Below, in pieces: positions 5,301 to 62,392 of a stretch of 64,000 bases of DNA (positions are counted from its first letter, which is position 1; every line of letters begins with the position of its first letter). Source of the DNA: Struthio camelus (taxonomy: Eukaryota; Chordata; Aves; Struthioniformes; Struthionidae); NCBI RefSeq assembly GCF_040807025.1, contig NC_090964.1, forward strand, positions 6,014,001-6,078,000. The letters run 5' to 3'. Below the pieces are notes generated by a model, which saw only the letters and a list, made by a program, of their open reading frames with translations, was not told the DNA's origin and did not search any database. Position numbers and translations under genes: made by a program.

Positions 5301-8300
5301 CGAGCTGGCGCAGGGGCACAGAGGCAACACAGAACAGACGCTGGCCCTGTTTAAGACAAGCTCTTAGCGCAGGGAAGGAGCTCCCCAGAAGTTCTGCAAC
5401 GCCAATAAACAGCTTACCACGACTCCAAGGATTTTTTGGAGAGAGGATATGGAAATACAAGCCCTTAAAGACTGGTGTTGGCTGACCTGCAGCTAAAGCA
5501 TCGCTGCAATCGGGGGATGGCACCCAAGCAGGGAGCAGCTCACCTCAGTCATGTCACAAGCTCAGCCCAGACCTGGGCACCTCTGCAGCAGCACTGCCCA
5601 ACCAGCCTGACCAGTCTCACTTCACCAGCAACCGTCTCCTTCACCCAATTGCTCCACGTGGCCAGCAGCGTTTAAATACATGCATGAGCTGCGTTACCAG
5701 TGTAGCTAATGCCTACAACGATGCTTTGAGGCATCGGTCCTCCGGGGCTCCCACCCGCGCTGAGCAGGCGAAGGTCAGCGCCGAGACCAGCTTCACCAGG
5801 CCACGAGTAAGTTCAGAGCTTCCCCAAGGTCTCCCATCTCATTGCTGCGATGCGCTGGCTGTTTGCAACAGCCACAAGCCAGCTGTAGTGCCACCACGGT
5901 CAGAGCTTGGTCTCTTTGAGGATTCATGACACACATCAAGCCTTGCAGCCCTTGCTCAAATCCAGCTCAGGTCAACTGTGGCCAGAAGTAATTACCTCCA
6001 TGAAAGGAGCTAGAAGTCACCTTTAATAAGAGGATGTATTTGTACCATCAGGCCTAGGTTCCTCGTTCTGTTTTGCGGCTGACTGGAATGCCAAAACTGC
6101 AAAATGCATTAAGCGGACTGCAAGAAGGTAACCTCATTCCTTGCGACCAAACATGGCTTTCTCAGGAAGAGCAGGAAAAGGCAGGTTTCTTAGTCACCTA
6201 TTTACAAGCAGGAGCAGAGAACATTTTAATAGGATTCATTCATTTAATTGAATAGTGCACGGGATGTCAGTGGCTTTATTTGTGTTGGCAGAGGGATTTA
6301 GGATGAGCAAACGGAAGCACGAGGGCAGGCCCTCTGACTTCAAACACTTCCGAGGGGCCAGTCAACGCGACACCCGCGTCAGGCTGGCATTAGGTTGGGT
6401 TGGTTTTTAAATGGTCTCAGCACCCTCCCAAGAGCATTTTCCCAGATGCCTTCAAATTACCAAGGCGCAGGAAGAAGCAGAGGAGACAACTCCAGCCTAA
6501 GAGGCACGTCACCCTAAGACAACCAAAGGTGCCTTCCAATCTCTGCTTCCCTTGAAAATTGCAAGCAAAAGGCAGTGTTAAAGCCTTCCCTTTCCAAGGG
6601 CAGCAGGGTCCAACCAAGCCTCGTGCGAGGTTCAGACAACACAAAGCCATTCCTACCTGACGTTTTGTGACTCCGAGCAGACACTTGGGAGGGGAGCCCA
6701 GATGGTGCATGTGTGCGTGCCCTGCTCGCGGCGTGCTGTGCATGCACGTCTGGTATTTCAGGATTTTCTCGGGGGTATCAGGAGGGGACTAGAGACAAAC
6801 CATGCTAATTGGATAGACGAAGAGTCCTCTGCATCCCTATAAAGCTGGGAGCAGCTGCTCAAGACCTCTTGTGAACCACAAAAACAGTTTCATCTAAGGA
6901 GCAGGCATGGATTAAACCCCATAAACACTCTTTTCTCTTCACTGTGCAAACGCATTTTCCCCCCATTGCAGTCCCAAACTCAGACCCGGAGATCAAACCA
7001 GGAAGTTTAGCAAACTTTGAGCAGCAACAATAGCAGGAGGATTTTCCAGGCCTTCAAGCTTGTTTTGCAAGTCCCAGATTATGTAAAGCTCTGGGCTGCA
7101 TTGTAAGGGAAGCCACGCTGCCTGTTTGGCTGCCAAAGCCAGCTGGCACCGTGCGCTGCCCTTGCTTCAGTGCCTGTAACAGGGGCAATGGGGTCTTGTG
7201 CAACATCCCAGCCTGCTGTTTGAATTCCTTCTCAGACACCTTCGGCTGCAATTATTACCACGCAGCAGCAACTGTCTTTCATTTCACACGTCACTGTTAT
7301 GTGATTAATCATCTTCCCAGGGTCTGGGTTTGTTTTCCAAGACTCCAGGCTCCCATCCTGCCTAAATGTTAGGTACTAAACCAATGGCCCCGGGAGAACA
7401 GTCTCCTTTGTGTCTATAGGGCAGCTTTATCATGTTGTCACAGCTATGCCTAGGGGTCAAGTATTCCTTCCATCACTTCACTAATCCTTGGCTTTTCTGC
7501 CAGTTAGGATATGCTGGAGGGGTGAAGCGGCTATCATGGCACACGAATCCTCCAGGAAACAATACGAGAGGATAAACTCGCTCCCCACGTGGCACTCTGA
7601 GACGACCAGCTGGAAAAACCCCGGCAGCACCCCTGACCCAAGCGGGATCCGCGCTGGCACCCTCGGTACCGACTGCACGCACTCCCGCCTGCGGCAGAGC
7701 GGCGTCCCCTGGCAATCGCTTCGTGCACACTGTGAGTCCCCATGCATTTGCCTAATTGAGCCCTAATGAAGTGGGGAGATCTATTGTGGGCCTGAAAGGA
7801 GAGCAGATGTGTCCCTGAACCTCCCTGCTGCCAGGGAAGCCCGCTGGCGTCTCCAGGGTGATTCAGCAGGAAGAGCTCGCGGGGAAAACGCAGGCCTGGA
7901 TGCTCCGCGCAGCCACAGCCGCGGGCAGCGCTGCAAATTCAAGACCTTGACGCTCCATCAGAGCCAGGGAAAGAAAATGCTCTGTTCATCAGCAGCCTCT
8001 AGTGGGGAAAGCGCGCAGATGGGCCGACCGCTCCGCACAGCCCCCGTGAGCCCCGCGACCCGCAGCCCCCCGACCCGCTGTGCCCGGACCTCCCCTTGGC
8101 CAGCCCAGCCGGGGACGGCCCAACTCCGCTCAGCACACCCCCAGCACTCGTGGGCTCCCTGCCTTGCAAAGCAAACCGCCACAGCCTCGGCTCCGCGTCG
8201 GGCGCGTGGATGGGGTCTGCACGGAGGGGTCGTCCCCGCGTGCCACCCGGGGAAGCGGCACCAGCCAGGGCTCCACGACCAGCAAGCTCCCCCGGCGCTG

Positions 8301-11300
8301 GCCCTGGGCTGAGCACCTACAGCAGGCTGCAGCATCTCCCTGTGAAGCCTGACTCAGAGCCTCAGAGCAATCACTAGATGAAGAAAAACACACAAGAGGG
8401 ACTCTTGACACATCAAAATCCTTTCTGGGCAGTTCACTGAAAGAGAAATTCCCAGGTTGATGGTGGGTGAAGCCAGTCCCGTGCTGAATCATGCTTCGGA
8501 GAGCTCCCCTGCCTCCAACGCACAGCATCCAATGTGCCTAAGAGCCAGTTTTAACCCCAAACTTCCAGCCACCACATCTTTGAGCCTCGTCCTCCCGTGG
8601 TTAAGTGGGAACACGCCGCTGTGCTAAAATCACACGGAAAGGAGCATATCTGCCCTTTGGGGTAAGGAACATCTGCAGTCCGCTCTCCTCCCTGGGGAAC
8701 GGCTTATCGGCTTCCTGAAGCTCAGAAAAAGCTTCATTAAAATATCTTTAGGGTCACGCACTCGGGGAAAGGTTGATATTTCGCTTACCCTCCAAGTGAT
8801 CTTCATTGACCGGTGGCTTGGAAAGGCCGGGGCCCGGCGGGGCAGGCGCGACGCAGGGAGATGCTGCTTGCACACAACTCCCGGGATGGCCAAGCTGCGT
8901 GCCGGGAGGCGGCAGTAGCGCTGCCAGCGTCGGTACAGCCGCACAGCCGCGGATGAGAAGGCACTTTTGAGCCAAGGCAGGGCCTTCAAACCCTTTCGAG
9001 AAGGCCTGAAGTTTCCCTTAGCGAAAAGGCGGACCACGGCGCGCTAGCGAGGGTGCGTGTTCGGGGACGGGGGAGGCCCACGCCGCCGACAGAGCGGCTT
9101 GAACGCAACCACGGAAAAGCGGCTCGATGCATCAAATTCGCTGTTACTAGCTCGTTACCATCACGACACGCAGGAGCAGCACGTGCCTCGCTTTTGGGGG
9201 AGAAACACGCGGAACTGCTAACATTGAGATAAGCTGGGGGAGACCAGGCTAAGCAAGCTCAGAGCAAGCGCCCAGCACTCGGAGAGGAGCCGTGCTGCGC
9301 TGCGTCTGCGTTGCCAGCCCGCGCAGACCTCCACATCCAAGGGGTGAGTGAGTTTTGCTCTGCTCCCGAGTCATGGGAGCATCGGCCACATCTTTTTGGG
9401 GACAGGCACAGCACAGCTGCGTGACCCGTGTGCATACTTAGCACAAGCAGGGCAAAAGCTGCGGAGGAAGGATTAAGCAGAGCAGGGAACCTCAATCCCA
9501 TGTTACTTGCAACTCTCGTGCGGATGCCAAGTTACTCCCACATACTAGCCCAGTTACTCCAGCAGAAAGAGGATGTGGAGGGGAGCACGGGCACTCCCGC
9601 CCGGACTGCACGGGTGGGATCCCTGAGTCCAGCTCTCAGCCCCATCTGTGCTGTCCTTAAAGCCCTGAACACCCGCAAAGAGCAGGGCAGCAAAGGGCTG
9701 CAGATGGGTGCATCTTGCTAGAGATGGTTTCGGGGTGCACCTTGCAAGTGCTCCCACGCTTCAACCCAGCTTCTGCGTTCCTGGGTGAGAGAGGTGTAAA
9801 ACAGCGTGGCAGAAGTTTCTTTGCACCTTCCGCCTTCCCCATCTGCTACCGTATTCTCCAGCTTACCTTGCCTCGCTACCAGGCCACGGCAGAGTAGCAC
9901 TAGGGAGCTGCAGAGTCATTACCACTCTGCACGCCGAATCGCAGCCCTGTGGCGACACACACCTTTGCACGGCCTGACCTCGCGCAGGGGGAAGGGTGTG
10001 TGGTGCTTGACGTCAGCTCCCTCCCGCTGCCCTGCCGAGCTGGCAGAGCCAGCCAGCAGACTTGGCAGCAGCTTTGCTCCAGGCGCTCGCAAACACCGCC
10101 TGAGCATGGACTGGCCAGCCCCGGCGCGGGGGCCAGACCCGCAGCCCCGCTGCAGCCCCCCGGCACGGACCGCGCTGCAAGCGGGCACCGCGACGCCCAC
10201 ACACCCGCTCCCACCAACCGCAGCAGACGCAAAGCGAAGCAAACGCTTCCCGTACACGAGCCTCGGCGTAAGTCAATCCTGCAGCGAGGAGCAGGCTGTC
10301 CTGCAGCGCCGAGCCAAGGCACACCCCTGCGTTGCAACACAGCCCTAAAGATAGCGACCGTCCCCCTACAAGCCCGGCGAGCGCCTTGAACCCTGCAGCA
10401 CCTACGCTCTCCCTGCCCCACAGCTCTCAAGAGCCACCGCTGAGGTTGCAAAGGCGCCAGCCGACCTCAGAAAGAGGGGAAGGCAGAAGTCCCCGCTTTG
10501 GCACGCTTCACGAGCTAGCGAGCCGGTTTGCCGAGTGCCCCACGTGCTGCTGTAGGCTGCACGGCAGCGATATTCAGGAAGAGAAGAGGAGATTCCAGGA
10601 ACCGCCGAGGAGGCTCAGCCATGCCGCATGCTCCTCTGGTTGCAACATCAGCACAACGTGCCGCCGTCTAAAAGGAGATGTGGTGAGATAAATACCCCTG
10701 TTTGTACAAGAGGGCGGTGGAGACGGCACAGAAAGTCAATAGCAAGATTTTGAGCGCGGCCAGACTGAAGGCAGCATTGATCCGTGCTCGGGCAGGTATC
10801 GACAGGAGGGAGGAGTCCCCGGCGCTCCCGGCAGCCTGCTGCTGGGAGGTGCACGGAGGCACCGCGTCTGGCTCCGGAAAGGGCCTCAGAGGGCACAGCC
10901 AGCATCTCTGCGAGAGGGGAAACAGCGCGGCAGCTGCAAAATCCCCAGGCCAAGGACAGCAGAGTCCACGCACCACCCCGGCGAGCTGCAAGCGCCAACC
11001 ACCTCCGGGAAATAAGCGCTAGAGCCGCATGTCAAAACACGAGCCGCGCAGCCTTCACGCCGAGGGACAGCCAGCACCGCTCGCTGCGCAGCCGGGGCAG
11101 ACGGCCCCGCGAGACGCGCTTTAAGATCCCCCTGCAAAAGCCAAAACAGAAGCCAGCCGCTTAACGCGCCCAGCGGCGCTCACCCCGCGCGGGGCCGCGC
11201 CAGCGCCCGGGACGCAACCTCTCGGCTGCCCCTCGCGCGAGGTGCGGGCTGGCGGCCTCTGGAGGGACCCGCGTCCCCAAGGCTGCGCCCACCTTCTCCC

Positions 11301-11569
11301 CACTACGGGGAAACCCCCCAAGCGCCAGGGCCGGGCGGCCGCCCACCCGCGCAGGCGGTGGCCGGAGCGGCCCCAGCCGCGTTATGCAACGCTACAGGCG
11401 GCAGATTACCCCGCGCGGCCACTACCGGATTCTTCACCCCGCGACGCCCGGCGCAGCGGGTCGCCCGGCGAGGGGAGGCGGCCGCGGGCTCAATGCTGAG
11501 TAACGGCCCGCGGCGCGGGGCTCCCACCCCACTGGGGCACAGGCGGGACCCCGCGGCCGCCCCGGCCTG

Positions 11570-12120
11570 ACCCCGCCGGCACCCCCAGCGCGTCCCGCTT
11601 CCCCCCCGGCCCCGCGCCGAGCTGGGCCCCGCTTCGGCCCCCAGCTCCAGGTGCCCCCAGCACCGCCGTGTCCCCCCACGCCCAGCGCACCCCTCACCCC
11701 ACGTCCTTCCCCCCCAGCCCCATCCAGCCCCCGACCCCACTCAGCACCCCACTGCTGCCCCCACTCCCAGCCTGACCCCACCGAAGACCCCCCCAGCCCC
11801 AGAGCACCCCACATCTCCCAGAACCCCCCCTGCCCCACACCCAGCCTGGCCCCACTGGGGGGGGCCCCCAGGATCCCCCAGCCCACGTGACCCCATAACC
11901 TCCCCCCACCCCACACCCATCCTGACCCCACCGTGCCCCCCCGTAGGCAGCCTGGCCCCACTGGGGGCCCCCCCAAGCCAGAGCACCCCCACTCCCAGCC
12001 TGACCCCCTGCGCCCCCCAACCCCCCCTGCGCCAGAGCACCCCACTTCCCCCCTCACCCCCCCGCCCCACGCCCAGCCTGGCCCCACTGCGGCCCCAGGG
12101 TCCCCCCAGGCCCCCGCCGC
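11570..12120. repeat. Degenerate C-rich minisatellite
   Basis: The plus strand is almost purely C-rich pyrimidine blocks. The phrase AGCCTGRCCCCAC, or a near match, recurs near 11,768, 11,842, 11,918, 11,947, 11,993 and 12,072, with AGAGCACCCCAC recurring between some copies. Spacing varies from roughly 30 to 80 bases, so this is an old, degenerate tandem repeat. The minus strand carries many runs of three or more G. It begins just inside the intron that would follow the minus-strand splice donor at 12,131-12,130. Confidence 0.6.
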
Positions 12121-12131
12121 CCCCGGCTCAC

Positions 12132-12200
12132 CCGGGCCGGGCCCCGCCGGGCTCCGCTGCGCTCCGCGCTGCCCTCCACCTGCACCGCCTGGCCCCGCCC
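12132..12200 (-). other. Candidate non-coding first exon, minus strand
   Basis: Read on the minus strand, GC-rich DNA without an ATG ends in CCCGG followed by GTGAGC, a consensus 5' splice site with GT at 12,131-12,130. CRE-type sites and GC boxes lie immediately upstream on that strand, at higher coordinates. This fits a spliced 5'-untranslated exon of a gene running leftwards out of the window. The exon start is a guess, no partner exon was found, and the gene is not identified. A chance donor in CpG-island DNA is the main alternative. Confidence 0.35.
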
Positions 12201-12204
12201 CTTC

Positions 12205-12433
12205 TGACGTCAGCCCGCGCGCCCCGCCCCCCCGCGCCGCTGGCCGCGCCCACTGGCTGCCGGCACCGCCTGTCAGCCGGTCGCGGGGCGGGGCCGGCGG
12301 CGGCGCTGCAGTGGGCGGGGCGGGCAGGTGGCGGCGTGACGTCACGGGGGCTCGGAGGAGGCGGGGCTCGGGGGGGCACCCTACGGGGTGGCGCGGGGTG
12401 CATGACATCACGGCGAGCGCTGCCGCGACGTCA
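12205..12433. promoter_or_regulatory. Cluster of four CRE (CREB/ATF) sites
   Basis: Perfect TGACGTCA palindromes occur at 12,205-12,212 and 12,337-12,344. One-mismatch versions occur at 12,403-12,410 (TGACATCA) and 12,426-12,433 (CGACGTCA). CREB/ATF dimers bind this element, and CpG-island promoters with several CREs are often cAMP- or stress-responsive. GC boxes lie between the sites. The cluster sits between a minus-strand candidate exon and a plus-strand TATA-like box, so it could drive transcription in either or both directions. Confidence 0.6.
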
Positions 12434-12441
12434 CCACTCCG

Positions 12442-12448
12442 TATAAGG
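12442..12448 (+). promoter_or_regulatory. TATA-like box, plus strand
   Basis: TATAAGG lies nine bases after the last CRE-type site, placing a possible plus-strand start near 12,470. A possible donor (GCG then GTGAGAG) follows at 12,608, and a homopolymer junction of nine T and eleven G lies at 12,526-12,545. No coding sequence follows that I can recognise, so any plus-strand transcript would probably be non-coding. Confidence 0.3.
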
Positions 12449-14326
12449 AGCACCTGCTCCCTGCAGGTTCCCCAGGGCCCTCTGAGCGCCCAGAAGTATC
12501 CGGGGCCCTTCCAGGGGGAGGGATCTTTTTTTTTGGGGGGGGGGGAGGTGCAGAAAACAAAAGAATTAAGCCCAAAATAGCCGCGCTGTGCCGGGGCGAG
12601 CGAGGCGGTGAGAGAGGAACGCGCGCCGGCCGGAGCGGCTGCTCTGCGCCCGCCCAGCCGAGGCGCGGCCGCGCTGCTGGGGCGCCCGGTCACGCCTTTC
12701 GGAGCTTCGCCTCCGCGCGCCTCTTTCTCCGCCGCTCGGCTCAAAGGCCGAGAAAGCGATCGCCTCCTTTGGCTGCCGGATTTGGTGGCAAACGGTTGCC
12801 CGTGCCCCCTTCTTCGGTCGGTTTCTCACCCAGCAGATGAGCCGCGTTTCGTTCCTCCCCCCAAATCGGGGCCTTTTCCCCAAGCAGCCGCCGCCAGCCG
12901 GCGCGACCTCCCGGCCTCCTCCAGCCGCTTTCGGCGCCGTCGGGGGCCAGCGAGGCCTCCCCGCGGCCTCCGCGCTTATCAGCGCCGCGCACCAGCCTCG
13001 CCGGCAGCTGAGTCACGGCGGTGCCGGGCAGGACGGCTCCGGAAACGGGCCCGGCACGCGGGAGACACCCCGGCCCGGCGGGAGGCCTCAGGGTAGCAAG
13101 AGGGGCCAGCGAGAGAGGACGCTCACGCTCGTGACACGGATGCTTTTATCCAGCTCCCAGCATCTCTCTTGCCAAGTCGCCGGGAAGCAGCTCTGCTCCG
13201 GCGCCTGCTTCTCCCTCCCGCGCCGGCGAGCACCACCCGCCGCCCCCGGGTGCCGCAGGGTCTCCGAGCTGTCGCCCTCCCCGAACGCTGAACCGGCATC
13301 ACAAGCCTTTTTCTTCCGAGGGCGCGACGAGTTACGCATCCCACTTCGGCTTCCCGGCTCCTGCGGCAGTGTGATTACTCGCCAGGAACTTTTGGGGCAA
13401 AACAGGCAGAATAGAGGCTTTTTTTTTCTCTCCTCCCCCCCACACATTTTTATTGGTTATTTTTTAGGGAGGGGGAAAAGCTTTCGCTCCTGGTCGCGTT
13501 GGATCAAGACAACGGATGGGGCCGACTCGGCGGGCCGGTGGGAAAGCCGCCGCTCGCACCCAGCGCCCCACCTGCCCTTGGCAGCGCCGCCGCCACGTGA
13601 GAAGCCTGTCCGGGGCCGATAAGGGCCCGGCCGGCGGCGCGCGGGGCCGGCGGCATCGCCGGAGCCTCTCGCCTCTCTTGGGAGGCCGCCCGCGCGGCCA
13701 GGCCGGCCCGAAGGCGTCCCTTATCCCCGGCAGCCGGGGCCCGGGGACACGCCTGGGCTATCGCCGGGGCGCAGGCGGCTCGGCGGGCCCCGCTCCGGGC
13801 GATACGGGAGCAGCAGCCCCGCGGCACCCCACCTTGGGGACACCCGGCGTCCCCATCGCCTCGCCGCGGAGGTGGCTGGTGCCACCTAACGGCGGCCGCC
13901 CTCTCTCAAGGGACACCCGCGTCCCTTCGCCGCTGGCCTCCCCCAGGCGCTCCAGTACGCCCAGTACTCCCAGTAACACCCACCTGCCCTGGCTCTGGGC
14001 CACTTGTGAGGTGCTGGCAGGGCCCAGGGCCACCGCAGTGCCGCTGCCCTGCTGTCCCCAGAGAGGGCAAAGACCTCAGCAGACGCCCCCAAGTTTGGGG
14101 ACGGGACCGACCCCGCCGCAGGCTCCGAGTCTTGACCCCAGTTCTCCGAGCAATCGGGATCGCGGCGGAGGAAGAGGGGCCCCTCGCCCCCCTCCCCGTC
14201 CCGTGGGGTGCACCCAGGGCGCGTGGACCCCCGGAGCAGCGTCGCAGGACTGTCACCTCTCCCGAGTCCCCTGGACAGGAGGAGGAGGAACGGGCACGGG
14301 CTGCTGCACGGCGACAAAAAAACTTG

Positions 14327-14332
14327 AATAAA
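14327..14332 (+). terminator. Possible plus-strand poly(A) signal
   Basis: AATAAA lies about 1.9 kb downstream of the plus-strand TATA-like box. It would fit a short unspliced or non-coding plus-strand transcript of the CpG island. A hexamer alone is weak evidence. Confidence 0.2.
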
Positions 14333-15064
14333 AGCCCCCAGCTCTGCTCCTACTCCTCGTGATCCGCACGGAGCCGAAACGCTCCCGGAAACCCAGCGGA
14401 AATGAACGGTCGGAGCCAGCACGAGCGAGAGGGAACAGCTCAGCTCCATCCGGCGACGGGGTGCTCAGGAGGGCTCGTCCCCTGTCCCCCCCGGCCTCTC
14501 CCGGCGATCCCGCGGAGAGGAGGGGGCTTGGAAGGAGGGAGCAGCCAGCGCTCCGGCCGGCAGCCGGGTGGGAAGCGGGGAGCCCCCGGCTAATGCGATG
14601 AGACGGGCAGGAATCGGTAAGCCATTAAGCCGCCACAAAGCCCCTCGCGTTCTGGCCCCGTTCTCACCGATTTCTGCTCACATCTGCTCCCGGGGTTATT
14701 TTTAACCGGGTATTAAGGACTTCAGGGGGTTCTTAAGGAGGCAGAGGTGGCGAAGGGCAGGCGCTGCCTGCCACCCCTGAGCAGGAGCGGCGGTGCGCAC
14801 CCCTAGATGTGCCCGATAAGACACAGACACCAGCCCCACGTCACGTGGCGGGGGACAGGACCCCACGGGACCACCCTCTGCTCTGCACCCAGCTCGGCTT
14901 TGCAGAGGGTCAGGGTCAGCGCGTCGTTCCCAGGAGCCTGCTGCCGCTGCGGAAAGGTTGCAGTCGAAAAACAGCTTGGAGGAACGACAGTCGTACAGCC
15001 CGCTAGGGGCAAGGCTGGGAAGGGACACGGGCCACGCGGGAGCCTCGCACAGAGGGATGCTGGC

Positions 15065-17312: not shown

Positions 17313-17624
17313 CTACTGCCTCTCGGCCTTGACATGGTCTCCAATCATCCTCCTGTGGTACGTGGCCAAGAAGATGTCGTTGTCTCGGGGGCAGTCGTAA
17401 TGGCAGGAGCACATCTTGATGAACATCATCTTCCGCTGGAAGAAGTCCCCCTCGGGGCAGCGGAACTCCACCTCCACGGTGCTGGTGACGTATGGGGTGC
17501 AGCAGCGGCCGTCCGTGCAGCTCCCGCAGAACTTGGGCCGGTAGGAACGGCTGCTGGTGCAGCCCGAGAACTCAAAGTGGAGGCTCTGGCGTGGCTTTGG
17601 GGTCCGCACACACTTCTTCCCCTT
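17313..17624 (-). CDS. CCN exon 5: C-terminal cystine-knot module and stop
   Basis: The acceptor is CCTCTCCCTAG at 17,625, and the exon opens in phase 0 with KGKKC, the junction usual in CTGF and CYR61. It encodes residues 247-349 and the stop. Ten cysteines follow the CT pattern, including the paired cysteines of DGRCCTP and the CSCHYDC cluster. In known CCN proteins this module mediates heparin and integrin binding and dimerisation. The tail after DNDIF is a few residues longer than in CTGF and ends basic and polar (HVKAERQ). Confidence 0.93.
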   Translation of the reverse strand, partial: KGKKCVRTPKPRQSLHFEFSGCTSSRSYRPKFCGSCTDGRCCTPYVTSTVEVEFRCPEGDFFQRKMMFIKMCSCHYDCPRDNDIFLATYHRRMIGDHVKAERQ

Positions 17625-20600
17625 CTAGGGAGAGGGCAGGGTGAACAAGAATGCAAGAATCAGACAAAAGGTCCATCTAGCCCTGTGCCCTGTCTCCATC
17701 CCTGGGCCTTGGGGCACACAGGAAAAGGGGAAGAGCAGGGCAAACCTTGTGGGACAAGCTCATGCCTTACAGGTATCTAACTAAGCCTTCCCTGGCATTC
17801 GCTGTGTTGTGTTCCCTCCTCTCTCCCCAAACCAGTACCTTGGTTTTCTCCATAGGGAAATCGCAGGGCCGGACCATGCAGAGCCGAGTCTCCTTCTCCA
17901 GGCGGCACTGGGGGTTGTCGTTGGTTACTCGGGCAGAGATGCCCATCCCACAGCTCTTGGAGCAAGCGCTCCAATCAGTGGTCTGCACTAAGCAGTTCTC
18001 CTGCAGGTTATTCAGCTCCGGCTTTTGTGCTGGAGTCTCCCTGAAAACTGAGCCACACAGAGGAGACACAAGGCAAGGGTCAGGGCTTGAGACAGAGCAT
18101 GGCACAAAACCGGTCCGTGGGGCTGGACCATGGGGCTGCTCCCAACTTGGCCTAACTCTTCACAGACAGCAGCAAAGGACAACAGGAGACATCGATCAAA
18201 GATGCAACAGAGAGCCCCAATCCGAAGGCAGTTTGGCCTTATCTCCTATCCCCTAGCAAACAACTCCCACCCAACATGCTGATCACCTGCTCCTGTGCCT
18301 CCCCAGCCCTGTCCCGTCTGCCTCTCGCTCACCTGCCATGGCTGTTTCAAAGCGGTTTTCCTCACTGCCCTCCTCACAGATCCACTCCTCGCAGCACTTA
18401 TTGCGAAACTTCACCCGCCGGGGGTTGGGGCATTCGGGGGATGGCAGCCTCAGGTCATCGGAGCACAGAGGGATGCAGCCAATGGCCCCGTCCATGCAGA
18501 TGCACTGCAGCTTGCACGTGGGCTGGAAGCTCTCCCCGTTGTGGTAGATCTTGCCCAGCAGGTCACAAGTTGCCCCCTCGTGAGCTGCAGGAAAGGGGCA
18601 GAGGAGGAGAAGTTGAGAAAATAGCATGGGGCCAACAGCACGGCCTCTGCCTCCTGGGGCTACTTAGCCTCCTGATGTCCCCACAAGGGGCAAACACCCA
18701 TATGCAGCCTCTCCTCGACTCTGTGATCCCAGTGGTGGATGCAGCAAAAGTTAGCGCATTTAGTATTAGGCTCCCTGGACCCCAGGGTATTCCTGACATT
18801 GATTTTTGGAAGTTGGCTTCAGCCATGCCAGAACTCCCAGAGTGCACTAGCGAAATCTCTTCTCCACTTGGATGAACTGCGAAGTTGGACTTTCTCTTTA
18901 CAGCCTTTCAGCTTATAACCAGCCTGTTCCTGAGTCAGAGTTCTCCCTGCCAGACTCAATAAGCGCCCCTGGTCAGTGAGGTTGTGCAAGACGCATTCCT
19001 GACACAACGCATGAACCTGCGGCTTTGTTCCTAGTTATTCCTACTAGACCAAAAGGCAACATTCTTCTGCGAGCAGTTGGTTTCCCACATGTTTAAAGGT
19101 GACCTACAAAAGGAAAAACAACACATTGGGTTTATGACCTTTCTGGCTTCTCTGCGATACACAAATCTCTTCTTCCTTCCAGTCACAACTTTTTCTATTC
19201 CTGTCTGCTCAAGCACTCTGATCTCCAGATCTCTCATCTGCAGCCCTCCTCTGAGTCTTTCAGTCCTTCCCTATAAAACTTAAATGAGCAAAATGGAAAC
19301 ACAGTACCTTACACATAGGACCAATCCTTAGTCTGCAGGTGTGAACAATGCTCAAAAGTTTGTAATTCTGCATTGGCCAAAAGTTTTCTAGTGGAACACT
19401 TTGCCAGCAGAAAACTCTTACTTGGTTAAGAGTCTCCCAGGCCCATATCAATTTCATCAACTTTTTCAATGGGAAAATACTGAACCATTTTAATTTGATA
19501 TCAAAAGTTTCCTTTACACGCTTAACAATAGCTCACACCAAAACCAAAAATATTGCTGGACAGAACGCATAGCGGGAAACATTTTTATACACTATAATCA
19601 TCAAAATGAAACATTTTGATATACTCAAAGTGCAAAGTTCTGACCAATCCAAACAAGTATTCCAGGTAATTCATGGAAAAATTTGAGGTTATTTTTCCCC
19701 TCTCTTCAGCCTGAAATGAAATGTCAAAATCTCAGAGCTGTTCACAGGACAGCTTCTGGACAGCTCTAGTCGGCTGCCTCTTTCTGCATTTCTGACCCTT
19801 AAAAACAAAAAAAAATCGAAGTAAACTTCCATTGGGAAGTTACCAAAATGAGGGATTCTTGGCTGCTTGTGAAGGCTTACCAGGAAACCTGATCTATTTT
19901 CTCCTAGCCCTTCTTGCCCATGGCCTGGAACATTGTCTCAGGCAGAAAGCGTTTGGACCAAACAACAAGCGAGAGCTTAATTTCTTTCCACCTAGTCCTT
20001 GAGGGGACACAAATCCTTCCGGTCTGCTAATGCCTTGTTTCTAACCAGAGTTGGATCTCAACTTGCAACTCTTTTCAGTGCCATTGGTATAAAAATACTC
20101 CTGCTGTTCTTACTTGGAAGTTTCCTCACTTTTTCCATCAAAGTGGAAGCTGTCCACTTTCCTTCTACATGGCCATTCATACATATTTTTAAACCTTCTT
20201 TCACTGTTTTTTAGCCCAAGTCCTTGAACTGATCATGCCGTTCCCTCAGAAGCACTCCTCCCCACCCAAGGAATGGCAGCCTGCTCTGGGTTTTTATTAT
20301 GTTTTCAAAATCCAATCATTCAGTCATGCTTTTCATTACCTTAACAATGACTTCACTTTCCTGTTGACCTGATCCAATTAAAGCACCAAAATGGATTGCA
20401 CTAGCGGAGTGAGAGGGCTCTTTATTTACCATCTCCGTTTGGCACCACGGGCATCTCCTGCCTCCCGACACCAGTTCCAGCCAAGGAGACTTTTGCCCTC
20501 CTCTGCAAGGAATACGACAGAGCTCAAGCGATCGGCTCCGGCTGCTCAGCTCTGAAAGCTCCCTGCACCCACCCAGACGACCCTACTCCTGTGGACTCTC

Positions 20601-23600
20601 GCCCTTCAGAGTTACCTGGAGATCTTCCCCATCTTTCTGATACTCTGAGGTCTCCACAGAGGAATTCTTCCCTTGCTGCAGTATATAAAGTGCTATGTAT
20701 TGTGTTAATGTTAAACATATTTTCACTCTGACGCTTCTCTTCTGATACTGCCTTCAGGCTGGTACCCAGTCTACAAGCTTTCCCCTTGACATGTTAACAC
20801 CTCTTTGTTCCTTTCTGCTCCCATCATATTTTTCTCGTGTGGATACCAGTAAGCCCTCTTTTCTCCCTTCACAAAAACTGATCTGTCCCTTCGTTCTACC
20901 CATCACTACATTCTCAGCATCCTTTACCGCCTCCAAAATCCCCCATTTTTCAAGAAATCAAGGTGAACATTACAAAAATATCACCCAAGGACATTACAAC
21001 CCAAACCCTCAGTTCAGTATAGGGAGATATTCTGGTCTATACAAGTGGATCAGAAATTTTGCCATGAAAATCTTAATTTCTCTTTTCAAGGCTGAAAGGA
21101 CAATTGTGATCTTCAGCTCTGATTTTCCACATAACAGAGACCAAAGAATCTCACTCAAAAATCTTTGCATCAAACCCGTACCTCATAGTGAATGACACGC
21201 TTTTTAGAAAGGTGTCCGGTCCTCACGTGGACTCTTCAAAAAGCAGATTCCTCTACACTCCTGATTAAAGTGTTCCAACGATTTAGCTGCCTTTACTATG
21301 ACAAACATCTACCCCAGTTCCAGTCTTAATTAGCTTACAGTTGCTGGATATTATTACACCTGCACACTCCTTACTAAGCTTCAATCATCAGCTCTTAGGT
21401 GTATCAATTCCTACAGAAAGTAATGGGAAGCTCGTGCAATGGCCTCTAAAGGTCACAATAACTTGAAGAAGGAAAATTAAACAGATTAACAGATAACTAA
21501 GCAACAAAAGTCAAAAAAAATTTTTATTTTCTGACTGAAAAGAAGCCCCAGAATTAATTTAGAGAAAACAGGTTTGCATTTGTAGTTACCTGACTCAATA
21601 ATTCTCATTTCCTACATACACACTACTTTGCAAATGAATTGTTTACCTGTTTCTACCCACATGCTAAAGCCAGAAATATGGGTATGCCTCTTGCACGTAA
21701 GCAGTTGAGTGCAAAATGCCAGTCTCCAGTGCAATGCAATGAGATTTCGGGTGAGATTTTAAAAGCAAGATTTTAAAAGCAGCAGTCCTTTACAATAAAA
21801 ATCCAAACTGCTGACATTCACCCCCAGGCACTACAGGGTTAGAGGATCTCCCGCAACAGTGTCACAGGGATAAAGGGGAGTCCCAATCTCCCATATGTGC
21901 CTTTGGAAACACCCTTCACTACAGAAGAAAATACTTTGTGTGTGCATCAGTATGAGAGCATCTGCTGGCTCACAGGGGTGGCACAGACCTCTCAATGTGC
22001 CACTGGATGAATCTCTCTGAGTTTAAACACGGCGAGAAATTCTGCCAACGCTGTGGGTTTTCTGGGAGGTCTACAGGCACAGGACCAAAGGGGCTGCAAG
22101 CAAACCGCACAAAAACAAAACGCACAGCTCTCACCTAAGCAGATCCCGCTGCCTCTGTGGATTTTGGAGAAGTCGCAGTAGAGTCCCTTGTGATGATCAC
22201 AGGGTTTCTGAAGGGAGCAGAGCTCGCCCAGCTGCCTGGCGCACACCTTGCAGCAACCGCAGGCATCCAACACGTGGCTGGTGCCAGCAGGACACTGCAG
22301 AGGCTGGGAGGGACACTGGCAGGGATACGTGCAGGCCTGCGCTTCTACCTGGAGGGCACACAAGCCATGGAGAGAATGAGCCTCCCACAAGCCAACCAGG
22401 CAGAGACATGAAAAACATGAATCCGTTTCCAGCACAGTCACCCCGTCATCTCCAAGACCATCCCTAGCAGAGCATGAAGATCTACTTCTCCCTCCACCAA
22501 AGAGCCCTGTGGCAGAGGCCTGTGCATGCAGCTCCTCAGGACTCACATGACTAATCTTTTTCTCATCCCTAACTCATCTGGAGCTCAAGGAATAAAGATG
22601 CCTCCAGGAAACAGGGCCAAAACAAACAGGACAAGCAGTAGCTTGGAGCCCCTTGCACGGCTCAGCCCTCCTCTTCCCTGGAAGCAATACTATAGTAATT
22701 ATTAATAAGCAATCCCCAACTTTTACATAGCCCTATTCAGGAAAAAAACATCAAAGCACTCTGCAGTAGCATCATAACACCCAGGCTGAAGATGGAAAAA
22801 GCAAGACACACAGAGAAGCAACTTGCCCAAAATCAGCCAGCAGGACTTCGACAGAGCTGAAAACCACACCAAAGCCTCTCAAGTCCCATTTCATCTCCTG
22901 TACCTCATGCTTTCTTCAGTAATTCCAGAGATGTGCCCTCTTCCCCTCCCTTTTCTGGGGAACGTAACATAACGAACCTTCCTTGGGACCTTGCAAATCG
23001 ACAGCTGGGGCCCTTGGGACCCAGCAGTCCCAAGCTACAGCTTGGTAGTGTTTCAGTAGTGCTGGTCACCTCCTAAAATACACCCTTGGCTTTTATGCCC
23101 TTCAGATACTAAACAGGGGTAAGACTATGTCTGAAGGAGGGTCACCTTCTCTGGAAAAAGTAGGATGCTTCAAACGCTGCCACTGGTTTAGTAAGTGGCA
23201 TCCTTGTCCAGAACCAGCTTGGAACGGATATATCAGCCTCAGCTCTGGATGTATCCAGATTTGGGCAAGATGGAAAACCACAACTGTTAAAGGTGCACAG
23301 CACACGCTCTCTAAAGATCCTCTTACATCTCCTCTGAGAGAATCAGGGTGCTAATCCTAACCCAGATTCCCATTCAGCTTCTGCTCATTCAAACTCTCCA
23401 TGTAGTTTCAGAGGGGTGGAAGGGCACTACTCCGATTCCCAGCGCTCCCAGGCTGTGCCCTGCTAGACACAGGCCAGCTCCCCCCCCCCCAGGGTGGCTG
23501 CTGGTGCAGGGCTGATACGATCTCTGCCTGTAGATTATGGCAGGTGACACCTGCAAAACACTTTGAGATCCTGTATTGCTGCGAGTCCCTGCACAACACA

Positions 23601-26600
23601 CGCATCCATGCTCAGAAGTGCAGTGTGAAAGGGAAAGTGCCCGACAGGGCAAACACGCTGCGGCTCCCCTGCCAGACCTGGCTGCTGCCACCCAGGAAGA
23701 AGGATTGCAGAGCTGCAGCTGGAGAAAGCCTGGGGGAGGGTGAGAGGGGAACACCTGGAATAGAGAGATCCAGGAGGCAAAAGAAAAAGAAAAAAAAAGA
23801 AAAAAAAAGAAAAAATCTTGCTACAGCTCTGTTTGCACTTGTTATATCCTATCCAGCCCTCGCCTGATGAAACAGTTACCTTGGATATTGTGTTTTATCA
23901 GCAAAAACAGTAGTAAAACTCTTCCAGCTCTTTTGACTGTTGCTCGAAACAGCTGTTCTAACTTTAGCTCACGTGGGGTAAGAAGCTCTTTTTGTAACAA
24001 TCAGCACACTATGGCATAGGACAGGGAGCAGCCTAAATCTTTGCTCACAAGACCTCCCAGAGTTTTACCATGTTCAGGAGGAATCAGTATAATTCCCCTT
24101 GAAAACTCCTAGCTCAAAGTTTTCAGACATAAGCCCCTACTGCCTGTAGCCCAGCTGTCCTCGACTGCAGTCCTAGGACCACTTGCTGGGAGCTGGCATG
24201 TCACATGGATCTCTCCCCAGCTGCTACAGTGCATTAAAAGATGCTAAAAATACAGAAATGCTTTTCTGCTGGTTTTCATGTAAGCAACTGCTGCAGCTGC
24301 CAAGGGGACATGCTATTCAGCCATGAACGAAGGGGGTGGCGGGTACATGAGTTCCTAAAAGGGGCAAAGCCTTTCTAATGTGGGACCTGTATTAAGATGC
24401 AGTCCCCACACTGAAAAAAACAACAACAACGAGCATTTTCCAGCTCAGTGTTAGCCACGTGCCATATAAAGAAACCTTCCCAAAACGTCTCTCCTACTGG
24501 AGAAAACAAATGAAAACAACCTCTGTCAGGATAACATAGAACGCATGAGAATTAAACTCAGCTGAGTTTTCTCTCTCACCTTTATTTATCACTAGTGGTG
24601 CTGTTCATTTCCTTTAAGGACTCACCCAAAGAAACTAGGCCACCTGGTTTCACCTTGTTTATAGTCAGCTTCACTTCCTCATATTACAGCTACTTTCAGC
24701 GCATGAACATCTCTGTTGTGGTCTCAGATGCACCACAGACCTGCTGGGTGCCTTTATATCCCTGCCTCTTCTGTGCCTCATTTCCCCCATCCGCAAGCAA
24801 CAGCGTGGCTTCAAAGGCCCAATTCATCCACGTTTGCAGGGCTCTTTAATGTTTGGAGATCTGAAAAATCTATCAGCTCAGATACGCCTCTTTCCATTGC
24901 CCAGTCCACCTGGCCCCAGGACGCGTCGGGACTCCTGTTCGCTTGAGCAAAGTCAGCTCTTGCTACTTATAACTCCTGCTCCTCTCACTGGCCCAAGCGA
25001 GCAAAGAATGAGCTGAAACCTCTTTTGGCCTCGTGCACTCTCAGCACTGAATAACCGGCTGGCAAGAGCAACTTCTTGAGCAGAGAGCCGGCGTAGAACC
25101 GACTTCAGTCTAGAGTGCTGAAGGAGCACCCTCCGCCCTGCATTATTTTCAAGGACTGCTTCTAGGAGTTGTTCAATGCAGTGAAGGAGCTGCCCAGAAC
25201 ATCCCGAACAACAGCAGGGGCTCACATCCAGGGCTTTGCTACAGACCCCTACGTAACACAAGGGCTGACATTTCCGCATAATATGCCACAGCCCCGGGGG
25301 CAGAGGGAATCTACTTAGAAGTGTCTATCCCTAAAATTACGCTCTTCCACTCTCCACTAAGCAGGGTCTGTACATTAGATTCCCTATAGGCTCGATCTTG
25401 TTTCTGTCGAGGTTAACCGAATACTTCCACCAGCCTCAAGAGCAGCAGAACAGGACCAGCTCAGCGGATCAAGGCTATAGATTTAAGAAAGGGCTAAAGC
25501 CTGGAATATTCCTCTCCCTGCTCCTGGCTTTGCTGGCAGCTCTCATACTGATCACGAGCATCACGCGTGAATCTGCCCAAGCCGCGGCTGGAGCAAACAC
25601 AGCCTGACTAGAGGACTCCCATCTCTCTGCTCCACACGATCCCCCCCCACTGACTCCCCGGTCCCATCTGTTCAGCTGACAAGTCAAAACAAGCTGTCTC
25701 CCGACTGCCTGCACCGCAGGCTGAAACCCAACTACCTGGAGCAGGGGGGGGGGGGGGAAAGCTGAGCATGTTCTTTCTGCTTCACATTCATATCAGCCTC
25801 TCCCCACTACGCCCTCGTGAAGGCACGAGTGGGGGACACGAGCTCGCATCTCTGTGGCTGCAGGGGTCCGGTGGCACAGTCAGGGAGGAGTTCTTATTTC
25901 TGATCCCTCACCCAGGTCCATACGAGCCCAGGGAAGCAGCTAACAGGGCCAAACTAAAGAGGACTTTTAAAATGCACTGGGGCCCATGACTGCCTTGAAA
26001 AGGGGCTGGGAAAGGAGTGCTGTGAAGCTGAGCTAACTGTTTGCCAAGAGCTTTGGCAGCCAGGGGTTAATGCTGCGAGGTAAAGGTAATAGAATAAATA
26101 CATAATTGGTCCTCTTTGGCACTCCAGGACTGGCAGTGCATAACGCAGTCAAAACACAGCTATTCACGTACTCCAAACACCAAACTACCACGGCTCATAC
26201 CTGCTCCCTCCACCACGGGACCTCCAGGCACCGCCCCAACGCTGCTGCCGTACATTGTGCAACAGCCTATTGCGAGAGATATGAACCATTACTCCATTTC
26301 GCACATAGAGAACCGAGATGCGGAGATGACCTGACTTGCCCAGGTTGTAAGAGCTGTGCAGAGCTAAAAATAACGCCCAGGAATCCTGCTTCTGCTCTCA
26401 CCTCTGAACAACGTGGGAGGCTGGTTCGGGAGTAACAGCTCTCGTTCCCTTGCTCTATCCACTAAACACGACTTCCCTCTCAGAGCTGGGAATAGGAGAA
26501 GAAAGTCAAAAGTCCCGTTTCAAAGCATTCAGCAGAGTCAGGAGGAAAAAAAAAATGACCTCATTTTGGATAAAGTGTCACAGTGATGAGATTCACTGCT

Positions 26601-27571
26601 ATCATTTATAATGCTAGCATGATGCTGCCAGTGCTGGGTCAGTGCAAGAAACCAGAAAACCATCCCAAATCCCAGGAACTACCCTGACATCACTGCAGCG
26701 TTAGACGCGCAGAACACGCTTCCTGGCAGAAAAGGGGCCGGCGCATTTCAGCATGCCGCGAGGAACCAAACAGATCCCACCAGCCAGCAATTTATCGCAT
26801 GTATCAGCCCAATAAGCCTCACTCAGCGTAGCAGCTCACAGTGCGAATCTCGACTTCTTCACTGATCCAAAAGGCACTTACCGCAATTCAGATCTTATAT
26901 CAACAGATACATTAATGACTGCAACAATGTTCCTGCTATTATTGGTACTGCAGTAGCAGACAGAAGTCCTGAGCAGAATCAGAGCAGCTCTGTGCAAGTA
27001 CTTGTACTAGCACACAGGCAGACACAAACCCCAAACAAGAGAGGCTGCAGTTTAATCTCCTCCTCAGGATCACCGTTTCTGAGAACAAATGGGTGGGTGG
27101 GTTCAGTGGCAGCTGGCGGAGGATGGTGATGGTGAGGAACTGGGAGATGAGATTTTTATTCTTTACAGTGCCATAAACCTGGTGACTTCACCTCTCTCCG
27201 TTTTCTTCTTCCCTCTCGTAAACCAGGGCTGGCTTCTAACTCACCAGAGCAAAGCGAAACAAAATCCATTCACGGGTGCCAAGGGCTTTGAGATCCTCAG
27301 ATGACAGGCGGGACGCACGGTGCAGCTCTGAGCGTGCTTTGGTTACCCAGTGCCTCTGCACTGCTCTGCTAAAGCCAAACTTCTCTCAAAACCCCTCGGA
27401 GGCAGGTGGCAGCTGGGGGAGTTACTCAGCCCAAAGCACTCGCATGCATCAAAGCGAGAAGCTGCAATGCTCAGCCAGCAAACAGAGCTGCTGCAGTGCA
27501 ATACGTACCCAGCCAGGTGCAAAGAGGAGGAGGAACAGGGTCCAGGTCATGGTCCCCAAGCTGCCGGACAT
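17313..27571 (-). CDS. CCN-family matricellular protein, CTGF/CCN2-like (five exons)
   Basis: The coding sequence joins 27571-27509, 22348-22135, 18584-18333, 18047-17839 and 17624-17313 on the minus strand. Every intron has GT-AG ends and the frame closes exactly, giving 349 residues, the length of human CCN2. Order: signal peptide (about 1-26), IGFBP module (27-93, 12 cysteines), VWC (about 94-165, 10), hinge, TSP1 (195-240, 6) and C-terminal cystine knot (251-325, 10); all 38 cysteines are present. CCN proteins are secreted matricellular proteins that bind integrins, heparan sulfate and growth factors and act in matrix production, adhesion and angiogenesis. TSP1 and CT most resemble CTGF, for example [29 protein letters not shown] and DNDIF; the IGFBP module has CYR61-like touches such as [19 protein letters not shown]5 is excluded because the CT module is present. 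Which paralog this is needs a phylogeny. Confidence 0.93.
17625..17838 (-). other. CCN intron 4 with a CR1-like scrap
   Basis: A 214-base intron with donor AAG/GTACTG and acceptor CCTAG. About 17,655-17,700 on the plus strand contains GGTCCATCTAGCC and CCTGTCTCC, a phrase common near the 3' ends of old sauropsid CR1 elements. The fragment is short and diverged. Confidence 0.6.
17839..18047 (-). CDS. CCN exon 4: TSP1 module
   Basis: The exon encodes residues 178-246 plus two bases of codon 177. The acceptor used is GGCTCAG before TTTTCAGG; the next AG, seven bases downstream, would break the frame set by exon 3. The WSAC and CSKSCG motifs and six cysteines mark a thrombospondin type 1 repeat of CCN type. 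Residues 178-194 form the variable hinge between VWC and TSP1. Confidence 0.92.
18333..18584 (-). CDS. CCN exon 3: VWC module
   Basis: The 252-base exon starts in phase 1 after CTTTCCTGCAG and ends at CAG/GTGAGC. It carries ten cysteines in the von Willebrand factor C pattern, with [22 protein letters not shown] and [10 protein letters not shown], all close to CTGF and CYR61. In the family this module binds BMPs and TGF-beta. The last 12 or so residues begin the hinge. Confidence 0.92.
18585..22134 (-). other. CCN intron 2
   Basis: A 3,550-base intron with consensus ends (TTAG/GTGAGA and CCTGCAG). It is CpG-poor and partly AT-rich. A 13-base direct duplication (GATTTTAAAAGCA) lies near 21,755-21,780. 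I see no exon or recognisable mobile element in it. Confidence 0.75.
22135..22348 (-). CDS. CCN exon 2: IGFBP-like module
   Basis: The 214-base exon starts in phase 0 after GTGCCCTCCAG with VEAQAC and ends one base into codon 93. Twelve cysteines match the insulin-like growth factor binding protein N-terminal module, including CGCCKVC, the variant of GCGCCXXC found in CCN proteins. [20 protein letters not shown] matches the second half of the module in CTGF and CYR61. Confidence 0.92.
22690..22905 (-). mobile_element. Decayed MIR/CORE-type SINE fragment
   Basis: The plus strand shows CAAAGCACTCTGCAG, then a gap, then ACACACAGAGAAGCAACTTGCCCAAAATCAG in scattered order. This is the reverse complement of the old amniote SINE tail found in MIR and related elements. 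Heavy divergence implies great age. Boundaries are approximate. Confidence 0.45.
26283..26475 (-). mobile_element. Decayed MIR/CORE-type SINE
   Basis: The reverse-complement SINE order is visible: a CCATTT block, then CTGACTTGCCCAGGTTGTA, CAGAGCTAAAAATAACGCCC, AGGAATCCTGCTTCT and CTCTATCCACTAAACACGA. Each block corresponds in order to the MIR-type consensus. It lies in CCN intron 1. Confidence 0.5.
27509..27571 (-). CDS. CCN exon 1: signal peptide
   Basis: Two in-frame ATGs are possible, at 27,571 and 27,550. The first gives 349 residues and has G at -3; the second gives 342 residues and has A at -3. I chose the first because it lies upstream and reproduces the length of CTGF. Both give the same hydrophobic core ([10 protein letters not shown]) typical of a secretory signal. 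The exon ends in phase 0 at TGG/GTACGT, matching exon 2. Confidence 0.85.
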
Positions 27572-27688: not shown

Positions 27689-27696
27689 TTTAAATA
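27689..27696 (-). promoter_or_regulatory. TATA-like box of the CCN gene
   Basis: TATTTAAA on the minus strand lies about 118 bases upstream of the first ATG. TATA-containing promoters are usual for the immediate-early CCN genes CTGF and CYR61. Confidence 0.6.
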
Positions 27697-27775: not shown

Positions 27776-27992
27776 ACATTCCAGGGAACATGAGCAGATT
27801 CCTGTGGCCCTGGTGGTTACGGGGCTGCCGGTGGAGCCCGCAGCTCGCTTACATTCCACGTGGGTAAATCAAATCCCAGTAAAAAGCTCCAGAAGGATTA
27901 TCATCCTTTTTTAATTCTTCCCTCTTTAACTCCAAAAGTATGAAGCCTGGAACAGCTTCCTTGACTCCTCTTTCCCTACCTACATCCATTCC
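27776..27992 (-). promoter_or_regulatory. Three TEAD-type (GGAATG) sites in the CCN promoter
   Basis: GGAATG occurs on the minus strand at 27,782-27,777, 27,857-27,852 and 27,992-27,987, that is about 85, 160 and 295 bases upstream of the TATA-like box. The middle one abuts a CACGTG E-box at 27,857-27,862. Near-CArG sequences (CCAAAATGGG near 27,749 and CCTTTTTGG at 27,991-27,999) each miss the serum response element consensus by one base or one position. CTGF and CYR61 are established YAP/TAZ-TEAD and SRF targets. Confidence 0.5.
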
Positions 27993-62365: not shown

Positions 62366-62392
62366 ATGGCCGCCAGCCTGTGGATGGGGGAC
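62366..62392 (+). CDS. TRNAU1AP (SECp43), coding exon 1 only
   Basis: ATG at 62,366 begins MAASLWMGD, identical to the start of vertebrate TRNAU1AP as I recall it, followed by a consensus donor GAC/GTGAGT at 62,393 in phase 0. The full protein is an RNA-binding protein of about 290 residues with two RRM domains; this exon reaches only the first strand of RRM1. It associates with selenocysteine tRNA and takes part in its modification and in selenoprotein synthesis. The other exons lie to the right of the window. The start sits in the unique part of a CpG island, as expected for a housekeeping gene. Nine residues are little evidence alone, but start, donor and island agree. Confidence 0.85.

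Follow-up and report, generated by a model that had tools for sequence, protein, structure and literature searches.

CCN2 (CTGF) has been described as a proprotein from which metalloproteinases, by cleaving the hinge, release an active TSP1-CT fragment (PMC9860493), and both CCN1 (CYR61) and CCN2 act via integrins, heparan sulfate proteoglycans and LRPs (PMC4579636). A 2019 paper on the evolution of the family counts nine CCN genes in zebrafish and six each in human, mouse and frog; in its excerpts, land vertebrates consistently have six, in a sampling that includes no bird or reptile (PMC6610741). Zebrafish has a second CTGF-type gene on chromosome 19, ccn2b or zCTGF-c19 (PMC3133677), which at one antibody site is 61% CTGF-like, as against 81% for ccn2a (PMC4305327), and which is upregulated in a ccn2a mutant line but not in ccn2a crispants (PMC11711675). 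In catshark, the probe for a transcript named "CCN family member 2-like" stains the spinal cord/neural tube (PMC13188829).

In chicken, a gene with the symbol CTGFL is lower in the trachea of unvaccinated than of vaccinated virus-challenged birds (log2FC -2.60), where epiphycan and aggrecan fall together with it, and in the excerpts of that study it stands outside the top-20 list for the comparison with uninfected birds (PMC11802539). It is induced in tracheal organ cultures infected with a vaccine strain (PMC11792554), and it is listed directly before EPB41 and TMEM200B among the candidate genes for one trait, in a list that pools several regions with 50 kb on either side of each hit (PMC12993601). 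A pig paper, in the part consulted, lists CTGFL beside WISP2. The excerpted text of a 2026 chicken cartilage study reports the detection of CCN1-5, never mentions CTGFL, and takes CCN6 as being without an annotated chicken ortholog (PMC13240526). Among the matches listed in a search of the open-licence literature, we found no paper that treats chicken CTGFL as a CCN member with an origin as a CCN2 ohnolog.

The window analysed here is a stretch of 64,000 nucleotides from the ostrich, Struthio camelus (positions 6014001-6078000 of contig C23, in an assembly of 1.45 Gb and 262 contigs). It contains a CCN gene, hereafter the C23 CCN gene, which runs on the minus strand from 27571 to 17313 and whose five coding exons form one open frame. 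The exons, in window coordinates, are the following:

27509..27571, minus strand: coding part of exon 1, with the start codon and a hydrophobic, signal-peptide-like segment; donor GT, phase 0
22135..22348, minus strand: exon 2, IGFBP module (PF00219, residues 27-79)
18333..18584, minus strand: exon 3 (252 bp), VWC module (PF00093) and start of the hinge
17839..18047, minus strand: exon 4 (209 bp), end of the hinge and TSP1 module (PF19035, residues 195-238)
17313..17624, minus strand: exon 5, CT cystine-knot module (PF00007) and stop codon

The predicted product has 349 amino acids, including 38 cysteines, and contains no internal stop; all four introns are GT-AG, with phases 0, 1, 1 and 0. 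The first-pass annotation, made from the letters of the window, had given the same five exons, residue and cysteine numbers and coordinates, all of which proved exact. As judged by eye, the N-terminus is hydrophobic and signal-peptide-like. Exon 1 has two in-frame ATGs, 7 codons apart, of which the second has, again by eye, the better start context (ACCATGA).

The Pfam search recognised the IGFBP (45.8 bits), VWC (32.8), TSP1_CCN (71.5) and Cys_knot (45.8) modules, each above its curated cut-off, so that the earlier claim of all four CCN modules is borne out. Their order, IGFBP, VWC, TSP1 and CT cystine knot, is that of the CCN family, as is the exon layout with one coding exon for the signal peptide and one for each module. 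Exon 3 is equal in length to the 252-bp vertebrate VWC exon, and exon 4 measures 209 bp as compared with 212 bp for the TSP1 exon in the vertebrates examined (PMC6610741). Each of the 38 cysteines has a counterpart at the aligned position in human CCN1, CCN2 and CCN3 (38/38 in each case), and exon 5 retains the CCN2-type tail DNDIF..Y.R.M.GD. The search against solved structures returned four sequences, two of them CCN3 domains (VWC and TSP1) and two of them weak thrombospondin-type matches. At the level of sequence, the four modules with their 38 matching cysteines are no chance match, and the C23 CCN gene is a real, intact member of the CCN family.

In order to place this gene within the family, the whole assembly was searched with the CCN-specific TSP1 model. 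With 150 of 182 candidates scored, nine matches were obtained. Seven are strong, scoring 67-77 bits (two exons each on C3 and C2, one each on C8, C18 and C23); the remaining two, at C2:31.73M and C5:26.14M, are weak (30-33 bits) and were taken for other thrombospondin-type proteins. The labels CCN1-CCN6 were assigned by position and by exon matches to human CCN proteins, each human protein being compared with one locus; the human CCN sequences and the marker genes used throughout are not database copies. On this basis, CCN1 lies on C8, CCN2 and CCN6 on C3, CCN3 and CCN4 on C2, and CCN5 on C18 (7.995M), where no match to the CT module was found. Each ostrich CCN1-CCN6 pairs with its human namesake at 97-100 bootstrap in a tree of 13 rows, confirming the labels, and the corresponding identities are, from CCN1 to CCN6, 84, 91, 75, 67, 69 and 76%. 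CCN6 was found at C3:61434732-61435577 as four matched stretches with 65-81% identity to human CCN6.

Because CCN1-CCN6 are all present in the same genome, the C23 CCN gene is, on this evidence, a seventh CCN gene of the ostrich. The first-pass annotation had proposed either a seventh paralog, an old duplicate of the CCN1/CCN2 branch, or a translocated CTGF or CYR61. The former stands in the light of the six other CCN genes and of the trees described below; the latter is excluded, as CCN2 on C3 and CCN1 on C8 are both present. In the tree, the partner of human CCN2 is the ostrich CCN2 on C3, and that of human CCN1 is the ostrich CCN1 on C8 (100/100), so the C23 CCN gene is the ortholog of neither. 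CCN5 under its old name CTGF-L was also considered and rejected, since a CT module is present in the C23 CCN protein and CCN5 is found separately on C18.

Comparison of the C23 CCN protein with the other family members gave identities of 57-59% to CCN2, 49-52% to CCN1, 47-50% to CCN3 and 44-55% to CCN5, which has no CT module. Among CCN1, CCN2, CCN3 and ostrich CCN5, CCN2 is the closest in all four modules: for CCN2 versus CCN1, the values are 59-60% and 49-51% in IGFBP, 63% and 60% in VWC, 79% and 70-71% in TSP1, and 62% and 48% in CT. The TSP1 module is the best kept part of the protein and the hinge the worst, with only 15-19% identity to CCN2. Over all columns that separate CCN1 from CCN2, the protein is CCN2-like at 43, CCN1-like at 20 and like neither at 39. 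Parts of the IGFBP module had been thought to resemble CYR61; this was rejected by the count of separating columns within that module (CCN2 9, CCN1 3, neither 7). With CCN1, the C23 CCN protein shares the four modules, the 38 cysteines and the GSC.DGRCCTP stretch in CT, but it is without the long CCN1 hinge. With CCN2, it shares the modules, the cysteines and the CT tail motif; it differs in being encoded by a separate gene on another chromosome and in its diverged hinge. Its closeness to CCN2 could come in part from slow change in CCN2. At seven columns where both CCN2s share a residue, the protein instead keeps the residue of CCN1/CCN3, and at the columns where human and ostrich CCN2 differ it sides equally with each (4 versus 4).

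Phylogenetic trees were built from human and ostrich sequences in sets of 13, 9 (CCN5 and CCN6 omitted) and 8 rows (CCN4, CCN6 and human CCN5 omitted), in which the ostrich CCN1-6 rows are without exon 1, CCN4 also without the IGFBP exon and CCN3 without the start of IGFBP. The human and ostrich CCN2 pair excludes the C23 CCN protein in all three, with support of 97/97 (13 rows), 87/84 (9 rows) and 67/91 (8 rows). Forcing the protein together with ostrich CCN2 was rejected in AU tests at p 0.006 (13 rows) and p 0.019 (9 rows), and was not rejected with 8 rows (p 0.146); a position inside the CCN2 or CCN1 orthologs, which would have argued against a separate paralog, was thus not observed. The position outside the CCN2 pair is common to the three sets, which together do not settle on one sister for the C23 CCN protein. 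In the 13-row tree, joining it with the CCN2 pair (p 0.18), CCN1 (p 0.145) or CCN5 (p 0.128) was in no case rejected; joining it with CCN3 was rejected with 13 rows (p 0.016) and not with 9 (p 0.168). A grouping with CCN2 has support of 33/0 in the 8-row tree and is absent from the 13-row tree. Taken together, the seven columns in the CCN1/CCN3 state, the even division of the columns at which the CCN2s differ, and the AU tests with 13 and 9 rows agree with an early split, in which the C23 CCN gene would have separated from CCN2 before the bird-mammal ancestor.

The best evidence on the origin of the gene is the gene order. To its right in the window lies the first coding exon of TRNAU1AP:

62366..62392, plus strand: TRNAU1AP coding exon 1 (MAASLWMGD), read by its start; the sole TRNAU1AP exon inside the window

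Taken alone, this exon matches the probe at E 0.28; seven more stretches matching human TRNAU1AP follow at C23:6079180-6091143, beyond the window. The two genes lie head to head and are divergent, with about 34.8 kb from ATG to ATG, in agreement with the distance of about 35 kb noted in the first-pass annotation. Further to the right are two RAB42-like copies and then TAF12. The RAB42-like copies are in tandem (C23:6100995-6104485), each with two stretches of 57-58% and 42-50% identity to human RAB42, which is presumably a single-copy gene. To the left, FERM exons at C23:5.965-5.975M on the minus strand, from which EPB41 was named, place the C23 CCN gene between EPB41 and TRNAU1AP, both of which we take to be at human 1p35.3. 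Within 244 kb surrounding the gene, no match at E < 0.001 was obtained with probes for OPRD1, YTHDF2, RCC1 and a GMEB domain, presumably neighbours at human 1p35, and the local order is therefore not identical to the order presumed for human 1p35.

Elsewhere in the window, CpG-rich DNA at 60-64 kb marks the TRNAU1AP promoter, and directly before the TRNAU1AP start lies a G+C-rich minisatellite (60533-62135), in which a 43-bp unit is repeated about 38 times. A second CpG-rich region on the EPB41 side (8001-15000, up to 75% G+C), in which no coding exon was recognised by eye, is possibly the EPB41 promoter. Eight probes for other protein genes in the window gave nothing at E < 0.01, and Rfam gave no match at gathering scores. 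Of the 89 open stretches of at least 110 amino acids outside the CCN gene, 60 were viewed by eye, and the longest are G+C-rich or repeat-born.

The neighbourhood was then compared with those of the other CCN genes. A genome search with the protein 4.1 C-terminus model yielded 11 matches, in four places, on C23, C3, C2 and C18. The MAM model gave 42 matches, four of which were labelled by identity to human sequences, as PTPRU on C23 (84%), PTPRK on C3 (92%), PTPRM on C2 (80%) and PTPRT on C18 (92%); the names EPB41L1, EPB41L2 and EPB41L3 were assigned on the assumption of synteny. Two of these places contain a tight block:

C23, all on the minus strand: PTPRU at 5.757M, EPB41 at 5.934M, C23 CCN gene at 6.031M
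C3, all on the minus strand: PTPRK at 69.85M, EPB41L2 at 71.09M, CCN2 at 71.62M

Thus, a PTPR gene of the R2B type and an EPB41-family gene accompany both CCN2 and the C23 CCN gene in equal order and on equal strands, as would two ohnologs. The CCN genes of C2 and C18 are separated from the PTPR and EPB41-family genes there by 3-47 Mb, and the tight PTPR-EPB41-CCN block is common to C3 and C23 only. The best reading is that the two blocks descend from a single ancestral one, which was copied when the genome was duplicated in early vertebrates.

We therefore regard it as highly probable that the locus is a functional seventh CCN gene, likely the ortholog of chicken CTGFL, and a CCN2 ohnolog from the early vertebrate whole-genome duplications, on a chromosome that matches human 1p35. 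A bird- or sauropsid-specific duplicate of CCN2, fast-evolving after a move next to TRNAU1AP, would account for CCN2 being the closest protein by identity, and with 8 rows it is not rejected. Such a late origin is nevertheless improbable: it is rejected in the 13-row and 9-row trees, the protein has no lean to ostrich CCN2 and keeps the CCN1/CCN3 state at seven columns, and a random insertion would not be expected to arrive with EPB41 and PTPRU in the places that EPB41L2 and PTPRK occupy beside CCN2. That the C23 CCN gene is decaying or has lost its function we consider very improbable. The branch leading to it from the split with CCN2 is indeed long (0.53, as compared with about 0.29 on the CCN2 side, in the 13-row tree), but the frame is open, all splice sites and all 38 cysteines are in place, the upstream region has TATA-like and GGAATG sites, and chicken CTGFL is transcribed (PMC11802539, PMC11792554).

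A wider version, which overlaps with the reading as a CCN2 ohnolog and which we hold only tentatively, is that CCN2, CCN3, CCN5 and the C23 CCN gene form a set of four copies of one ancestral gene, produced by the two genome duplications, to which CCN1 does not belong; the closest sister of the C23 CCN gene might then be another gene than CCN2. PTPR R2B and EPB41-family genes are indeed found on C2, C3, C18 and C23, the contigs of CCN3/4, CCN2/6, CCN5 and the C23 CCN gene, CCN1 is apart on C8, and in the best 13-row tree a branch separates the four proteins from the others (74/85). Against this, the branches are short and unstarred, and the distances on C2 and C18 leave the tight block to C3 and C23. 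C2 may also join two paralogous blocks, since CCN3/4 presumably belong to human 8q but PTPRM and EPB41L3 to 18p.

Returning to the C23 CCN gene as a CCN2 ohnolog, its upstream region contains the following elements:

27690..27696, minus strand: TATA-like element TATTTAA, 125 bases upstream of the ATG
27777..27782, minus strand: GGAATG (TEAD-type) site 1, from the motif count
27852..27857, minus strand: GGAATG (TEAD-type) site 2, from the motif count
27987..27992, minus strand: GGAATG (TEAD-type) site 3, from the motif count

A second TATA-like element lies 452 bases upstream of the ATG. The motif GGAATG, which we take to be a TEAD site, occurs three times in the 500 bp upstream, as compared with 0.36 expected, and 10 of 1000 dinucleotide shuffles reach this number, so the excess appears modest. 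Ostrich CCN2 likewise has three sites (0.11 expected; 0/1000 shuffles) and ostrich CCN1 two (0.17 expected; 15/1000 shuffles). CArG, SMAD, SOX and AP-1 motifs were each absent from the 500 bp upstream of the C23 CCN gene. The three sites suggest, from the DNA alone, that the gene could be under mechanical (YAP/TEAD) control, like CCN2.

By analogy with its family, the protein would be secreted as a matricellular protein and would bind integrins, heparan sulfate and growth factors. The hinge between VWC and TSP1, presumably unstructured, would probably be cut by metalloproteinases, a guess from CCN2; the TSP1-CT fragment so freed may signal via integrins, heparan sulfate and LRP-type receptors, and the N-terminal half would serve to place or shield it. 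The best kept TSP1 and the worst kept hinge fit such an arrangement, with a conserved effector half behind a free linker.

Chicken CTGFL is probably next to EPB41, as is the C23 CCN gene, and is probably its ortholog; both adjacency and orthology are inferred from the gene list and the symbol, and not from sequence. CTGFL is, in addition, presumably an old alias of CCN5/WISP2. In published chicken data, CTGFL is expressed alongside cartilage-matrix genes. Since the two are inferred to be identical, the C23 CCN gene apparently already bears a symbol: it belongs to a known family, outside the accepted six, under a name that apparently already exists in chicken. Zebrafish ccn2b is comparable as a second CTGF-type gene on a chromosome of its own and as the less CTGF-like of its pair at the antibody site, but it has been named as a ccn2 duplicate, and is likened here to the C23 CCN gene by description only. 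A loss of the seventh gene in mammals would agree with the six genes published for human and mouse, and the gene is left out of the usual six probably because mammals no longer have it.

The gene order fixes an ancestral duplication that is beyond the reach of the protein tree alone. It may be, although we put this somewhat below even, that the original CCN set of jawed vertebrates numbered at least seven genes, the seventh being kept in birds, and probably in fish as zebrafish ccn2b, and lost on the line to mammals. If so, the pairing of ccn2a with ccn2b would not be specific to teleosts, and in the ccn2a mutant line the rise of ccn2b would amount to compensation by a gene absent from humans. 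Similarly, should birds possess a seventh CCN gene, similar to CCN2 and active near cartilage, chick-limb models of human CCN2 would hide a possibly redundant gene.
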